Source: Nocardia sp. NBC_01329 (GTDB taxonomy: Bacteria; Actinomycetota; Actinomycetes; Mycobacteriales; Mycobacteriaceae). From it: 64,000 bases of DNA. Within the stretch, counting starts at the first letter, position 1, and each line of letters begins with the position of its first letter. A program made the position numbers and the translations under genes. Below, in pieces: positions 1 to 15,691 of this stretch. The notes beneath the pieces are model-generated. The model was not told the origin of the DNA, made no database searches, and saw only the letters and a program-made list of their open reading frames with translations. The stretch lies in assembly GCF_035956715.1 (NCBI RefSeq), contig NZ_CP108381.1, positions 1,612,001 through 1,676,000 on the forward strand, given 5' to 3'.

Positions 1-3000
1 CCGCGTGCTGGAAGTCGGTGGCGGCACCGGCGGGCTCACCGCGAGCCTGCTGCCCGTGCTGCCCGCCGACCGATGCGAATACGTCTTCACCGATATCTCC
101 CCGGCATTTCTCGCCTCGGCCCGGGAACGTTTCGCCGGGCACGATTTCGTGGACTATCGGGTGCTGGACATCGAACACGATCCGGCTGCTCAGGGAATCG
201 ACGCCGCGACATTCGATCTCGTGGTCGCCTCCGATGTGGTACACGCGACCGCCGACGCCAAGAAGACATTGCTCTTCCTGCAGGACATGCTCGCACCCGG
301 CGGCATGCTCATGCTGCTGGAGGCCACCCCGGGTAACCCCTGGCTGGACCTGACCTTCGGCCTCACCGAAGGCTGGTGGTCGTTCCGGGACCAGCGGTTG
401 CGCCCCCAGACCCCGCTGCTGGCGGCGGCGGGTTGGGAAGAACTGCTGCGGTCACTGGACTTCGATGACGTGGTCGCACTCGGAGATCCGGCGCACCGCG
501 GCGCCGGATCACAGTCGGTGATCGTGGCCCGCACGGCCGCCGAACAGCTACTGCCGGCCCGCTCGGTCCCGGCGCAGCCGCTGGGCACCTGGCTCGTGCT
601 CGCCGACGGCGATCCACTGGCCGAAGAACTGGCCGGCGAATCGGAGCGGCACGGCGGACGCGCGATCGTGGTGCGTGAACCGGGCGATATCGATATCGAC
701 GAGGTGGCGCCCGACGCGATCATCGACCTGCGTCGTGGGCTAGGCGGTCCCTTCGAGGAGGAGCTGATCGCGACGACCGGAGCCGTCCTCGATCTCCTGC
801 GCCGCGTCTGCCGCGACAATCGCGAAGAATGGCCGCGAATTGTCGAGGTGACCCGTGGAGCGCATGCGTTCCGGTGCGCGGAAACCGACCCCGCCGGCGC
901 CGCGGTGTGGGGTCTGGCCGCGGTGGTCGCCGTGGAACTGCCGCGGTTGCGTTTCACCGCGGTGGATCTGGACTCCGAGCCCGCACCCGGAGATCTCGAC
1001 GCGATCCTGGCGGAGATATCGGCCGACGGCCGCGAACGGGAAGTCCTGGTCCGTGGCGGTGAACGGTTCGTCCGCCGACTCGAATCCGGGACGACGCGCC
1101 CGGATCTCGTCTCCGGGACGACGGTGCCGACGGAACACGGCTTCGTACTGACCTCGGCAGCGCCCGGCGCGTTGGATTCGCTGTGTTACCACCAGCGCGA
1201 CCGTATCGCGCCCGCGGCCGGGGAGGTCGAGATCGAGGTAATCTCGGCGGGCTTGAATTTCCTGGATGTGATGACCGCGCTCGGCCAGATCCCACCGTTG
1301 GAATCGGCCACCGAGCTGCGTTTCGGTGCCGAATGCGCGGGAGTGATCACCCGGGTCGGCAGTGGAGTCGACGATTTGCGTGTGGGTGAGGCGGTCGTGG
1401 CGGTCAGCCCCGCCCAGGGCAGCCTCGGTACCCATCTCACTATCTCCGCGGCCCATGTGGTCCCGAAACCGGAAACACTCGGTTTCGACGCGGCCGGATC
1501 GGTTCCCATCGTTTTCCTCACCGCCTGGTACGCCCTACACGAACTCGCGCGGATCGGCGCGGGGGAGCGGGTCCTGATCCACGCCGGTACCGGCGGCACC
1601 GGCCTGGCCGCGGTGCAGATCGCCCGCGCGGCCGGAGCCGAGGTGTTCGCGACGGCCGGTAGCCCCGCCAAACGTGACCTGCTGCGCGCCCTCGGCGTCC
1701 GTGCGGTGTTCGATTCGCGGTCACTGGATTTCGCCGACCGGATCCGCGCGGCTACCGGTGGCACGGGCGTGGATGTGGTGCTGAACTCCATCGCCGGGGA
1801 AGGGGCCGCGCGTAGCCTGGCCTGCCTGGCCCCCTACGGGCGCTTTGTCGAATTGGGCAAACGTGATCTGCTGCAGGACCGCAGGATGGGGTTGCGTCCG
1901 TTCCTGCGCAATCTCACCTATTTCGCCTTCGATCTGCGACAGCTGCTGGTGGACCGCCCGCAGGCGACCAATACGGTGTTCCGGACATTGATGGCGCGCT
2001 TCGCTGCCGGGGAACTGCGGCCGCTGCCCTATCGGGTCTTTCATCCCGCGCAGACCGAGGCGGCCTTCCGGCATCTGGCCGCCGCCCGGCATGTGGGCAA
2101 GGTGGTCCTGGCGATGAACGAACGGGAGGTCGCGGTGGTGCGTCCGCCGCGGACGCCCTCGTTCGGCGGGACCTGGCTGATCACCGGCGGTCTCGGTGGT
2201 TTCGGGCTCGCGATGGCGGAGGCGCTGGCCGCGTCCGGCGTGCGCAGCCTCGTCCTGCTCGGCCGGTCCGGAATCGGTGGCGAGGAACAGGCGGCGCGGG
2301 TCGGCGCTCTGCGCGAACAGGGCGTCCAGGTGGCGGTCGAAGCAACGGATGTCTCTGTTCGCGCCGAGCTGGCCGCGGTACTCGATCGCATCGCGGATCG
2401 GCTGCCGCCGCTGCGCGGGGTGCTGCATTGCGCGATGGTGCTGGACGACGCGTTGCTGGCCGATCTGGATGCGGAACGGGTGCGTAAGGTGCTGGCGGCC
2501 AAGGCGTTCGGCGCGCGGCACCTGGACGAGCTGACCGCCGGCTTGCCGCTGGAGGCCTTCGTGCTGTTCTCGTCGGCGACATCGATGGTGGGCAACCGGG
2601 GGCAGGGCAACTACGCGGTGGCCAACGCTTTCCTCGACCAGTTGGCCCATACGCGGCGGGCCCGTGGCCAGGTGGCGCTCTCGGTCAACTGGGGCGCGAT
2701 CTCGGATGCCGGATACGTGGCCAGACACGACGATATCGGCCGCTTCGTCGCCGCGACCGGGATGCGTGGGTTCAGCGCCGCCGCGGCCTACCGGGCGCTG
2801 ACGACACTGTGGTCCGGTACCGCCGCGCAGGTCGGGGTTCTGCCGATGGATTGGCCGCAGTTCTTCGGCCACCACGGCATCACCCCGCAGACCCACCCGC
2901 GCTACGAACGGCTGGCCGCCCACGCCTCCGGGACGGTGGCGTCGGCCGTGGGCGGTTCGCTGCGCCAGCAGCTGGACGCGTGCGGTGCGGGTGAGCGCGC

Positions 3001-3235
3001 CGAACTGCTGAGCGGTGCGCTGAAGACCCGGCTCGCCGCGGTGCTGGGTATCCCACTCGACACGCTGGACGAGAACATGCCGCTGATGGACTATCTGGAT
3101 TCCTTGCTCGCGGTGGAGATCAGCGCCTGGTTGGAACGGGAGCTGGCGACCAAGGTCACGATCATGGAATTGATGAAGGGACCGAGCGTGCTGCAATTAT
3201 CGGATCTGGTGCTGGAACGGCTCGACCGCCGGTGA
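1..3235 (+). CDS. Type I polyketide synthase, C-terminal part (MT-psiKR-ER-KR-ACP), 5' truncated by window edge
   Basis: Only the C-terminal ~1,076 residues are in the window; the frame is open from the first base, so the KS, AT and DH domains should lie upstream. Visible domains in order: C-methyltransferase with SAM motif LEVGGGTGGLT (residues 2-12 of the visible part, domain to ~175); a non-catalytic KR-like subdomain (~195-360); enoylreductase (~385-705) with nucleotide loop HAGTGGTGLAAVQIA near 527; ketoreductase (~722-900) with TGGLGGFG and catalytic Ser857/Tyr870 (QGNYAVAN); acyl carrier protein (~1000-1070) with phosphopantetheine Ser1033 in LDSLL. No thioesterase follows. The order MT-psiKR-ER-KR-ACP is that of iterative highly reducing PKSs. 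The stop overlaps the next gene by 4 bp (GTGA). The product is unknown; a methyl-branched, fully reduced chain is inferred from the domains. Confidence 0.93.
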   Translation, partial: RVLEVGGGTGGLTASLLPVLPADRCEYVFTDISPAFLASARERFAGHDFVDYRVLDIEHDPAAQGIDAATFDLVVASDVVHATADAKKTLLFLQDMLAPGGMLMLLEATPGNPWLDLTFGLTEGWWSFRDQRLRPQTPLLAAAGWEELLRSLDFDDVVALGDPAHRGAGSQSVIVARTAAEQLLPARSVPAQPLGTWLVLADGDPLAEELAGESERHGGRAIVVREPGDIDIDEVAPDAIIDLRRGLGGPFEEELIATTGAVLDLLRRVCRDNREEWPRIVEVTRGAHAFRCAETDPAGAAVWGLAAVVAVELPRLRFTAVDLDSEPAPGDLDAILAEISADGREREVLVRGGERFVRRLESGTTRPDLVSGTTVPTEHGFVLTSAAPGALDSLCYHQRDRIAPAAGEVEIEVISAGLNFLDVMTALGQIPPLESATELRFGAECAGVITRVGSGVDDLRVGEAVVAVSPAQGSLGTHLTISAAHVVPKPETLGFDAAGSVPIVFLTAWYALHELARIGAGERVLIHAGTGGTGLAAVQIARAAGAEVFATAGSPAKRDLLRALGVRAVFDSRSLDFADRIRAATGGTGVDVVLNSIAGEGAARSLACLAPYGRFVELGKRDLLQDRRMGLRPFLRNLTYFAFDLRQLLVDRPQATNTVFRTLMARFAAGELRPLPYRVFHPAQTEAAFRHLAAARHVGKVVLAMNEREVAVVRPPRTPSFGGTWLITGGLGGFGLAMAEALAASGVRSLVLLGRSGIGGEEQAARVGALREQGVQVAVEATDVSVRAELAAVLDRIADRLPPLRGVLHCAMVLDDALLADLDAERVRKVLAAKAFGARHLDELTAGLPLEAFVLFSSATSMVGNRGQGNYAVANAFLDQLAHTRRARGQVALSVNWGAISDAGYVARHDDIGRFVAATGMRGFSAAAAYRALTTLWSGTAAQVGVLPMDWPQFFGHHGITPQTHPRYERLAAHASGTVASAVGGSLRQQLDACGAGERAELLSGALKTRLAAVLGIPLDTLDENMPLMDYLDSLLAVEISAWLERELATKVTIMELMKGPSVLQLSDLVLERLDRR

Positions 3236-4077
3236 CCGGGATGGACGAGGTCTCCTTCCCGCTACCGAAAGCCGGTATCACCATGCGTGGCCGGCGCAGC
3301 CGAGGCGGTAGCGGACTGCCTGTGCTGTGCCTGCACGGCATCCTGGACAACTGCGCCGGTTTCGATCCGCTGGCCGCACACCTCCCCGGTGCCGACCTGA
3401 TCGCGCTCGACCTACCCGGCCACGGTCTGTCCGATCCGGTGCCGTCGGTCACCTGCGGCTACCTCGATTACGCGGCTTGTGTACTCGAACTGGCGCATAC
3501 GCAGGGCTGGGACCGGTTCCGGCTGATCGGCCATTCGCTCGGCGGTGCGGTGTCCTCGCTCGTCGCCGGAATCCATCCGGACAAGGTCGATCGGCTGGTG
3601 CTCATCGACGCCATCGGACCGCTGTCCGCCGATCCGGAACACGCGGTGTCCGGTATCGCCCGATATCTCGACACCTATCTCCGTGGCGACCGGCACCCGG
3701 TGTACCGCAGCCGGATGCACGCGGTGAAAACGCGGGTCCAGCTCGCCGATATTCTCCTCGACACGGCGGAACTGCTGGTGGAGCGAGATCTGATCGAGGC
3801 AGCGGAGGGCTTCTCCTGGCGCCACGATGTGCGGCTCAATCGGGGGATCACCCCCACTCTCGCCGAGTCGCAGGTCCTCGCCTTCCTGGCCGAGATCACC
3901 GCACCGACACTGCTGGTGGCGGCCGAACGTACCGCGCTTGTCGAGCCCTACTACCCAGCTCGGATCGGTACCGTCCCGAAGCTGCGTCAGGTCACCCTCC
4001 CGGGCGGACACCATCTGCACATCGAGAACGTCGAGGCCGTGGCGCGGGAGATCGCCGCATTCCTGCTCTCTGGCTGA
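3232..4077 (+). CDS. Alpha/beta hydrolase, PKS-coupled
   Basis: A 281-residue alpha/beta hydrolase. The oxyanion segment is VLCLHGILDN (~31-40), the nucleophile elbow is GHSLGG with Ser102, and the catalytic His lies in GGHHLHIE (~258-263). The GTG start overlaps the PKS stop (GTGA), so translation is probably coupled and the protein is probably stoichiometric with the PKS. As the PKS ends in an ACP without a thioesterase, a natural inference is that this enzyme releases or edits the ACP-bound chain, as thioesterase or acyltransferase. Sequence alone cannot separate that from hydrolysis of a small ester. It has no signal peptide and should be cytosolic. Confidence 0.9.
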   Translation: MTGMDEVSFPLPKAGITMRGRRSRGGSGLPVLCLHGILDNCAGFDPLAAHLPGADLIALDLPGHGLSDPVPSVTCGYLDYAACVLELAHTQGWDRFRLIGHSLGGAVSSLVAGIHPDKVDRLVLIDAIGPLSADPEHAVSGIARYLDTYLRGDRHPVYRSRMHAVKTRVQLADILLDTAELLVERDLIEAAEGFSWRHDVRLNRGITPTLAESQVLAFLAEITAPTLLVAAERTALVEPYYPARIGTVPKLRQVTLPGGHHLHIENVEAVAREIAAFLLSG

Positions 4078-4087
4078 GGGGTCGTGC

Positions 4088-4942
4088 TCATCGGGCGCGC
4101 AAGACACCGATCAGCACCGATCTGTCCCCGCGTTCGGGAACTGTGGTGTGGTACTGGTGTTCGCTGTCGCCGGTCCAGATCCGCGTGCGCAGTGATTCAC
4201 CGGGGAACACGATGCCGGTGAACCGTCCGGAGTAGGCGCGCACCCGTGCGATATCCGCATCGAGCACGGTATCGACCAGCGCCGTGCAGACCATTCCGTA
4301 GGTGCACATCCCCTGCATGATCGGCCCGTCCAGACCGGCCGCGCGTGCGAAGGCGGCATCCGTGTGCACATTGTCGTGCATCGAGTTCTTCTTCCCGCAG
4401 CGCTGGTACCACACGGCCTGTCGATCGTCGGTACGCACGACGATCTCCGCGTCTGCCGGCCGGGCCGGGACGGGTACGTCCGCCGGGCGTGCGGCCGATC
4501 CGGTGGCGGTGCCCTCGCCGCGCGCGTGGATCCGGGAGACCCCGGATACCAGTAGTGCGCCGTCGGGTCCGACCAGCTCGGTACGCTGCACCAGAACGGC
4601 GGCGGTACCCTGGTTTTCGATCTCCAGCAACCGGCTGTGGCAGCGGGCGATCCCCGACTTCTCGATCGGGGCGTGCACCCATAGTTCCTGCTCCTGCTGC
4701 AGCAGGGTGGTCAGATGCAATCGGATGCCGGGAAAGCGGATCTCCGGGGGCTGCCGGTGATAGAAATCCGGGGAGGCGACACCGAAGGCTCCGGGCGCGG
4801 TCATGGCGAAGGTGGGCAGCACTCCTGATTGCCGATCCCGCTGCCCGACAGCGTGCCGATAGCGCTGGGTGTCGGCTGCGTACCAGCTGAACACCTGTTC
4901 CGGGAGCACCAGCCCGGTCGCGGTCGGCACATCTATGGGCAT
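4088..4942 (-). CDS. MaoC-like double hot-dog hydratase/dehydratase
   Basis: A 284-residue protein with two hot-dog halves, the length of hydratase-2 type enoyl-CoA hydratases. The C-terminal half has the MaoC-style stretch HTDAAFARAAGLDGPIMQG (~193-211). The usual catalytic D-x-N-P-x-H pattern is not matched exactly (here MHDNVH), so catalytic assignment is tentative. The ATG at 4942 was chosen because homology-like sequence begins at MPIDVPTATG; the frame stays open further upstream but reads as low-complexity Arg/Gly sequence typical of a shadow. It converges on the hydrolase gene, 10 bp apart. It may hydrate or dehydrate acyl-CoA or acyl-ACP intermediates linked to the neighbouring PKS (inference). 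Confidence 0.8.
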   Translation of the reverse strand: MPIDVPTATGLVLPEQVFSWYAADTQRYRHAVGQRDRQSGVLPTFAMTAPGAFGVASPDFYHRQPPEIRFPGIRLHLTTLLQQEQELWVHAPIEKSGIARCHSRLLEIENQGTAAVLVQRTELVGPDGALLVSGVSRIHARGEGTATGSAARPADVPVPARPADAEIVVRTDDRQAVWYQRCGKKNSMHDNVHTDAAFARAAGLDGPIMQGMCTYGMVCTALVDTVLDADIARVRAYSGRFTGIVFPGESLRTRIWTGDSEHQYHTTVPERGDRSVLIGVLRAR

Positions 4943-14216: not shown

Positions 14217-15691
14217 GCCGACACCTCGCCCAGTTCGGCTACCGGCAGGTCCGAGACACCATAGGAGGCCAGGAACCGTTCGACCGTGCGTAACGAGCCG
14301 GCGTAGTCGAAGTTGCGGAACGCGTAGCCCTTCACGACGAATGGGGCACCGGCGTAGAAGAGTTCGTACTGCTGATGGCGGCCTGCGAATTCGCTTCCGA
14401 TGGCGTCCCAGGCGAGTTTGAACAGTTTCACTCGTTCGACGGCTGAAATGTCGGGGCTGCTCACGTATCGGTCCATATCGTCGCGAGTCGGCTCGCCGAT
14501 GAGCTCGTTGACACTCGACGGCACCTGCAGCACGCCACCGCCTGCGAGGTCGCGCACGATTTCGATCACCCGCGGGTGGATCTCGGATTGCAGGCCCATC
14601 GCGCCGTACAGGGATCCGGCGCCCGGCCTCCACAGCCCCTGTTCGTCCGGTGCTGCGGTATGTTCGGCGGCGAGTACCCCGGATTCCACGATGGAGACCA
14701 GTCCCGCGAGTTCACCGAGTTTCTCGACGACGCCGGGGAACTTGTCGACGCCGTTGACCGCGGCGATCTTACGGGCGATCCCCGCCAGGAACTTCAGCTT
14801 CGTCGCGAACCGGATCTGAGCCTGCCAGTTACCGAGTACGTGGGCGCCGGTGTCGAAGAACTGCTTCCGCAGCCCCGGCACATCCTTGTAGACGAAGACA
14901 TTCTCCCACGGGATGAACACGTCGTCGAACACCAGCAAGGCATCGGTCTCGTCGTAGCGAGAACTGAGCGGATAGTCGAATTCACTCGTCACATTCGGGG
15001 CATACGGCCGTCGGCAGTAGAGCTTCAGCCCGGTCGCACCGACGGGGACCGTGAAACTGATCGCGAAGTCGGAGTCCTCGTCCTGCAGGGGTTTGATACA
15101 GGAGACCAGGATCTCGTCGGCGACCGCACCTCCGGTGGCGAGCATCTGAGCACCGCGGACCACAATGCCGTCCGCCCGCTCCTGCTTCACTCCCACCTGG
15201 ATGAACTCGCCTTCCCAAGCATGCGCGGTGGTAGCGCGCGAGACTTGTGGCGGGATGATCGCGTAGGAGACATAGAGGTCGTTCTCGACGACTCGGCGGT
15301 GGAAGGCCAGAACATTGTCGCGGAGCCCGCGTTCTGCCGAGAACGCCTCGGGATGCAGCGAGAACGCGGAGACGAAGGCGCCGACATGATCGGGCGAGCG
15401 GCCCACCCAGCCGTGAGTGTGGTCGGCCCAGACCTGGGCCGCGGTGCGGTATGCCTCGAGGTCCGCCGCGCTGCGCGGTGGCAGGAACAGCCGGTTGACG
15501 GCGCGCCCGGTCGTCTCGTCGCTGACCTGCATCCCGTTGTACGGGTCGGCGGCGAGGTCGAACAGGTCGCCGATCGTTCGGGCGATCGGCGCGAACGCCG
15601 GGTGGTCGGCGACATTGCCCACCGGCACGCCGTCGACGATCACCTGACGGCCGTCGTCCAGTGCGGATAGATAATCGGTACCGGTGCGCAT
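14213..15691 (-). CDS. HpaB-type FADH2-dependent aromatic monooxygenase, large component
   Basis: A 492-residue group D flavin monooxygenase of the 4-hydroxyphenylacetate 3-monooxygenase/PvcC family. Seen: the N-terminal MRTGTDYLSALDDGRQVIVDG signature, the central PPQVSRATTAHAW region (~176-188), FAISFTVPVGATGLKLYCRR, FDDVFIPWENVFVYKD (~273-288), and the helical C-terminal domain with LGELAGLVSIVESG and GGGVLQVPSSVNEL. Such enzymes hydroxylate phenols, or attack N-heteroaromatics (pyridine, pyrrole carboxylates), using FADH2 from a partner reductase, here encoded two genes downstream. It overlaps the DUF2848 stop (TGATG) and has AGGAG before the ATG. The substrate is unknown. Confidence 0.93.
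   Translation of the reverse strand: MRTGTDYLSALDDGRQVIVDGVPVGNVADHPAFAPIARTIGDLFDLAADPYNGMQVSDETTGRAVNRLFLPPRSAADLEAYRTAAQVWADHTHGWVGRSPDHVGAFVSAFSLHPEAFSAERGLRDNVLAFHRRVVENDLYVSYAIIPPQVSRATTAHAWEGEFIQVGVKQERADGIVVRGAQMLATGGAVADEILVSCIKPLQDEDSDFAISFTVPVGATGLKLYCRRPYAPNVTSEFDYPLSSRYDETDALLVFDDVFIPWENVFVYKDVPGLRKQFFDTGAHVLGNWQAQIRFATKLKFLAGIARKIAAVNGVDKFPGVVEKLGELAGLVSIVESGVLAAEHTAAPDEQGLWRPGAGSLYGAMGLQSEIHPRVIEIVRDLAGGGVLQVPSSVNELIGEPTRDDMDRYVSSPDISAVERVKLFKLAWDAIGSEFAGRHQQYELFYAGAPFVVKGYAFRNFDYAGSLRTVERFLASYGVSDLPVAELGEVSA

Follow-up and report, generated by a model that had tools for sequence, protein, structure and literature searches.

Nocardia sp. NBC_01329 encodes a polyketide synthase (PKS) of the highly reducing (HR) type, a lone complete module, immediately downstream of a squalene-hopene-cyclase-like protein (SHCL), and the same pairing was found at every other SHCL locus that we recovered. 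The PKS gene crosses the start of the window, the 64,000-nucleotide stretch of DNA analysed here (C1:1612001-1676000), in a genome that is a single contig of 6,420,957 bp. With confidence that is about even, we favour a reading in which the HR-PKS works iteratively to make a methyl-branched chain, SHCL cyclises or isomerises this chain, and an acyl-CoA ligase, a cytochrome P450 and a hydrolase prepare or finish it. The genes of the cassette are listed below by window position, which is the genome C1 position minus 1612000, so that negative values lie upstream of the window (aa, amino acids; ORF, open reading frame).

-8393 to -7002 (L007:11607-12998), minus strand: cytochrome P450 (ORF, Pfam)
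-7119 to -5305, minus strand: FadD-like acyl-CoA ligase (ORF, Pfam)
-5130 to -4144, plus strand: SHCL, 328 aa (ORF, Pfam SQHop_cyclase_C)
-4147 to 3235 (C1:1607853-1615235), plus strand: type I PKS, 2,460 aa, with its 3' part in the window at 1 to 3235 (open frame 2 to 3235) (ORF, Pfam)
3232 to 4077, plus strand: alpha/beta hydrolase, 281 aa, probable release enzyme (ORF, Pfam)
4088 to 4942, minus strand: MaoC-like protein, 284 aa, with a degenerate hydratase-2 active-site motif (ORF, Pfam, alignment)

The order at this locus is thus P450-ligase / SHCL-PKS-hydrolase / MaoC, with the ligase and P450 genes upstream of SHCL and divergent from it. An ATGA overlap joins SHCL to the PKS, and a GTGA overlap at 3232-3235 joins the PKS to the hydrolase, the latter as described in the initial annotation of the window. 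That annotation also spoke of a coupled hydrolase and MaoC; the genes are as it described and the hydrolase overlaps the PKS, but the MaoC gene lies convergently on the opposite strand and is therefore not coupled to the PKS transcript. The longest ORF of SHCL spans L007:14522-15856, and its start was set at the ATG at 14870, where conservation begins, which gives the 328-aa protein.

A Pfam scan of the 2,460-aa PKS located the ketosynthase (KS, 7-383), acyltransferase (AT, 535-841), dehydratase (DH, 898-1164), methyltransferase (MT, 1386-1486), enoylreductase (ER, matching ADH_N/ADH_zinc_N, 1789-2086), ketoreductase (KR, 2106-2284) and acyl carrier protein (ACP, 2389-2453) domains, and no thioesterase domain. 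As the stretch between MT and ER matches no Pfam family, the structural KR half (psiKR) was assigned there from position and length, giving KS-AT-DH-MT-psiKR-ER-KR-ACP in one chain. The domain order proposed earlier for the in-window part, an MT before a KR-like half, ER, KR and a terminal ACP without thioesterase, thus agrees with Pfam, the KR-like half by position only. Upstream, the KS, AT and DH belong to the same single-module ORF, as the initial annotation expected, with no modular assembly line or other domain order that would have contradicted it. Among 16 PKS sequences, three of them truncated and each counted only where it covers the site, the catalytic motifs are kept throughout: the KS Cys/His/His, AT Ser, DH His/Asp, the MT SAM motif with its His and Glu, the ER and KR nucleotide motifs, the KR Tyr and the ACP Ser. 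The usual extender rule for AT domains reads HAFH and YASH motifs; because the motif here is CACHS, in all 15 sequences covering the site, the extender cannot be assigned by this rule. In the Pseudonocardia spinosispora PKS, about 210 extra residues lie between psiKR and ER (L065:13709-14349), again with no Pfam match.

The whole genome holds 23 matches to the KS N-terminal family, including the one in this PKS. Among the rest, the closest that sits in a frame of PKS size is at genome position 1,229,086, about 378 kb away, a distance on which a modular assembly line was rejected; matches in shorter frames lie about 349 kb (394 aa) and 262 kb (403 aa) from the PKS. The PKS is therefore a lone complete module, from which its iterative use is a fair inference.

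SHCL was assigned to the squalene-hopene cyclase (SHC) fold by sequence and by structure prediction. Pfam SQHop_cyclase_C scores 50.9 bits on its longest ORF (cut-off 26.1), and the NCBIfam hopene cyclase model scores 39.5 bits, far under its cut-off of 431.1. An AlphaFold2 model of the Nocardia jinanensis SHCL, built with 13 aligned sequences, had a mean pLDDT of 90.0 and a pTM of 0.92. Structural searches with this model (Foldseek, VIA-align) were led by 8paj (Z 31.8) and 8pak (Z 31.2), single-domain squalene-hopene-cyclase entries of Archangium and Cystobacter, followed by a Streptomyces drimenyl diphosphate synthase (Z 30.0), an SHC (Z 29.2) and MstE (Z 27.9). Identity to these single-domain class II cyclase structures is 17-20%. 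SHCL is thus predicted to be a single-domain alpha/alpha barrel with the fold of class II terpene cyclases. The stretches EWD, ETSSEY, H-x-HIP and HFGINWYYY are invariant or nearly so in the 13 sequences, with Glu105, Glu109, His144 and His146 invariant; SHCL is conserved and plausibly an enzyme.

The distribution of SHCL is patchy. In a genus sample, 27 of 150 genomes matched it at E<=0.001; eight of these, our genome included, have a genuine relative (identity of at least 67%, E<=2e-153), and the matches in the remaining 19 are weaker, at E 7.7e-11 or worse. In an order sample, 5 of 397 genomes matched at 1e-15 or better, among them our genome and one of the genus eight, and the only one of 296 genomes in a phylum sample to match at 1e-20 was our own. 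Two SHCL peptide patterns run against a named genome collection returned 36 stretches, 13 of which were confirmed, in N. jinanensis, N. grenadensis, N. donostiensis, N. cyriacigeorgica, N. paucivorans, N. wallacei and a Nocardia metagenome-assembled genome (MAG), and beyond Nocardia in Actinoallomurus purpureus, Mycobacterium attenuatum, a Mycobacterium MAG, Allokutzneria sp., Pseudonocardia spinosispora and a Mycobacteriales MAG. Eight of these 13 duplicate loci from the genome samples, and the combined total is 16 distinct loci, our own included.

The PKS gene directly follows SHCL in all 16. Ligase and P450 genes are present in 14 of the 15 loci where the sequence reaches far enough (the N. 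donostiensis contig starts too near to be counted), and a hydrolase gene comes after the PKS in 11 of 13 testable loci, three contigs that end inside the PKS being excluded; at two loci (L066 and L051) only a fragment of it is seen, at the contig end. MaoC was found in 11 of the 16, the remaining five being short of sequence on at least one side. The gene set is kept while its order varies: at L053 the ligase, P450, SHCL, PKS and hydrolase genes all lie on the same strand, and at L063 and L066 the MaoC gene is on the far side of the P450. SHCL and PKS co-vary in pairwise identity (r = 0.93; 55 pairs from 11 loci, not independent of one another). In comparisons with Nocardia relatives, dN/dS was 0.12-0.14 for SHCL and 0.10-0.12 for the hydrolase (three comparisons each), 0.13-0.16 for the PKS and 0.12-0.15 for the P450 (two each), and 0.27 for MaoC (one). 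SHCL is therefore under purifying selection, like the PKS and the hydrolase.

The accessory enzymes were surveyed in the same loci. Ser102 and His260 of the hydrolase are invariant in 10 of 10 sequences, and release of the PKS product by this enzyme is plausible. In the ligase, the ATP loop and the C-terminal lysine motif are conserved in all 11 sequences; its best-scoring models are general acyl-CoA ligases, all below cut-off. The P450 has kept its heme Cys and ExxR motif. Helix I of P450s usually carries an acidic residue, where all 11 sequences have Val (GGFVTT). The MaoC family match is clear (66 bits, cut-off 27). The hydratase-2 active-site motif is Asp-x4-His; in none of 11 sequences is there an Asp five residues before the invariant His193, that position being Glu in three (L053, L063 and L066) and the other eight having a four-residue insertion. 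Because the Asp of the motif is absent, a canonical hydratase role of MaoC is doubtful, and the degenerate motif, together with the intact DH of the PKS, also weakens the idea that MaoC serves as a trans-acting dehydratase.

The initial annotation had taken the domain order as a rule of fungal HR-PKSs that is less common in bacteria. In a class sample, 36 of 296 genomes, ours included, carry MT-psiKR matches at 1e-25, the next best match after our own being only 35% identical. From the eleven best places after our own, ten regions from eight genomes were characterised by frame size, KS match and alignment to the PKS, the remaining one (in genome G621), with a frame of 1,683 aa, being left out. 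Each of the ten has a single full KS match within a stop-to-stop frame of 2,482-2,706 aa, and nine of them align with the PKS over most of its length; at the edge of one region (L103) lies part of another PKS. Single-ORF synthases of similar size are thus present in no fewer than 8 of the 296 actinomycete genomes sampled, so the architecture is not unusual in actinomycetes, and domain order was rejected as the novelty. No SHCL homologue was found in any of the ten regions at E<=1e-3; three have weak ligase matches, one a weak hydrolase match and one a weak MaoC match. In a tree of 30 KS sequences, 14 SHCL-linked PKSs split with support 1.0 from the ten class-sample PKSs and six other KSs of our genome, which places the SHCL-linked PKSs in a distinct clade.

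Fungal HR-PKSs have the MT before psiKR-ER-KR-ACP, and those such as LovB and PsoA resemble this PKS in domain order, in lacking a thioesterase and in standing alone; they differ in that the KS and MT found here score higher with bacterial entries, and in the partner, here an SHC-fold protein. Against solved structures, the MT scored best with CurJ (215 bits), ahead of PsoF, the best fungal entry (125), and LovB (110); the KS scored 462 bits with PikA1, 461 with CurL, 419 with MAS and 370 with LovB, while 7zma scored 657 bits but with two KS stretches. On these bit scores, which place KS and MT nearer to bacterial relatives (the KS tree held no fungal sequence), a fungal origin by transfer was rejected. 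The earlier view of the order as fungal and less common in bacteria is supported neither by the class sample nor by these scores.

Taken together, these results suggest a route that we describe here conditionally. The lone PKS module, used iteratively, would build a methyl-branched, partly unsaturated chain, its MT adding methyl groups to the partly reduced chain. SHCL would act on this polyketide either while it is bound to the ACP or once it is free, cyclising or isomerising it through acid catalysis; the invariant Glu105 would stand in for the catalytic Asp of squalene-hopene cyclase. The hydrolase would free the chain from the PKS. Activation of a starter, or of the acid once freed, would fall to the acyl-CoA ligase, and oxidation of the product to the P450. 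The iterative, methyl-branched product released by the hydrolase that the initial annotation envisaged is kept in this scheme. Because an SHC-fold protein lies beside a C-methylating PKS, and no prenyltransferase was found among the eight own-locus proteins scanned with Pfam (the SHC-type match of SHCL itself aside), it is suggested that rings may be formed on a terpene-mimicking polyketide. The specific proposal that SHCL is a polyketide polyene cyclase with Glu for the catalytic Asp, making terpene-like rings from a C-methylated polyketide and giving Nocardia, mycobacteria and further actinomycetes 'terpenoid' skeletons without isoprene units, is tentative and on balance doubtful.

For Glu105, hhalign (SHCL against SHC: probability 97.4, E 9.8e-12, 24% identity) and MAFFT agree in placing this residue of the SHCL stretch C-T-E-T-S-S-E-Y on the second Asp of the SHC stretch D-x-D-D-T-A-E; the comparison set comprised actinomycete SHCs in which a script found D-x-D-D (10 sequences for MAFFT, 11 for hhalign), others being dropped. 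The first Asp is set against a gap by hhalign and against a residue past a three-residue gap by MAFFT, and in the SHCL model Glu105 is the second residue of a helix. The EWDS of SHCL, considered as an equivalent of DXDD, was dropped; hhalign puts it on the W-D-T stretch of SHC. Several findings weigh against the favoured reading. SHCL has a conserved T-E-T-S-S-E instead of DXDD, and the histidine of the SHC V-T-A-H motif aligns with Phe160, invariant in the 13 sequences, so SHCL is not a canonical class II cyclase. The register of Glu105 comes from alignments at about 24% identity with gaps inside the motif, and an alignment made by hand, starting at the downstream helix, moves it two residues, onto the first Asp; the third Asp is gone in either register. 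Sugar epimerases, AprG and protein prenyltransferases share the SHC-type fold at lower scores, which leaves cyclase activity unproven by fold. All loci were located through SHCL, so close PKS relatives lacking it are hardly covered. Finally, ligase, P450 and MaoC were not found in the flanking sequence examined in Actinoallomurus, nor a hydrolase beside the PKS in 2 of 13 loci, M. attenuatum (L062) and G354 (L052).

The loss of DXDD would also fit a lipid pathway. Here the PKS product would be an acyclic methyl-branched fatty acid, with the ligase and the hydrolase responsible for loading and release, and SHCL would have no catalytic part, being retained for its fold alone, for instance as a chaperone or acyl-binding partner. 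The conserved ligase points the same way, as do the best whole-sequence PDB match of the PKS, mycocerosic acid synthase (MAS, 1097.9 bits), and its best NCBIfam match, the sulfolipid synthase Pks2 (NF041183, 1305.7 bits, below the curated cut-off of 2400). MAS and Pks2 of mycobacteria are likewise single-module, fully reducing PKSs without thioesterase, MAS being the top-scoring solved structure; they lack a C-methyltransferase, whereas this PKS has one, together with SHCL and P450 partners. The polar and aromatic invariant stretches of SHCL also exceed the needs of a scaffold, and we consider the lipid pathway rather unlikely. The changes in both DXDD and its His partner, and the invariance of Glu105, Glu109, His144 and His146, would suit instead a polyketide isomerase, hydratase or pericyclase in which these residues shuffle protons on a polyene without DXDD-type protonation. 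In two alignments, however, the catalytic Asp is replaced by Glu and not by a neutral residue, and this alternative seems to us improbable. A meroterpenoid route, with SHCL cyclising a prenyl chain attached to a polyketide as MstE does and with prenyl donor and prenyltransferase encoded elsewhere, draws on the presence of MstE among the structural matches (Z 28). Against it stands the lack of a prenyltransferase among the own-locus genes, which the family-model scan covered; a fully reducing PKS would moreover deliver an aliphatic chain, where such prenyltransferases use a phenol. We regard this route as quite improbable.

Two further genes lie beyond the P450.

-10159 to -9137 (L007:9841-10863): sigma-70 family gene (Pfam)
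-11895 to -10759 (L007:8105-9241): transposase gene (DDE_3), some 2.4 kb from the P450 (Pfam)

In N. jinanensis (L055) and N. grenadensis (L056), too, a sigma-70 family gene accompanies the cassette at its P450 end. The nearby transposase gene and the patchy distribution suggest that the cassette may be mobile. An Rfam scan of region L008 gave no match at gathering scores.

Each component of the cassette is of a known kind, and it is the fixed pairing of an HR-PKS with an SHC-fold protein lacking DXDD that seems undescribed. The single-domain class II cyclases 8paj, 8pak and MstE share the single alpha/alpha-barrel domain of SHCL (Z 28-32), which differs from them in its T-E-T-S-S-E for DXDD and in being encoded with a PKS. 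The jawsamycin and fuelimycin PKSs (POP-iPKS), as far as the part of PMC13389473 consulted describes them, are KS-AT-DH-ACP proteins with a cyclopropanase and a stand-alone KR; they too are bacterial iterative PKSs with separate partners (fuelimycin has a separate thioesterase), but no SHC-fold partner is mentioned in that part. The literature matches listed, which leave most subscription journals outside their coverage, include no description of an SHC-like protein paired with an HR-PKS, and the pairing is absent from the parts consulted of two Nocardia genome surveys (PMC7413640, PMC12153302).

If a terpene-cyclase fold does form rings on polyketides, this would join two large biosynthetic logics and would provide a new class of cyclase for genome mining and biocatalysis. 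N. cyriacigeorgica, N. wallacei, N. paucivorans and M. attenuatum are of clinical relevance, and the cassette, present in all four, therefore points to a metabolite not yet characterised in actinomycetes of medical importance.

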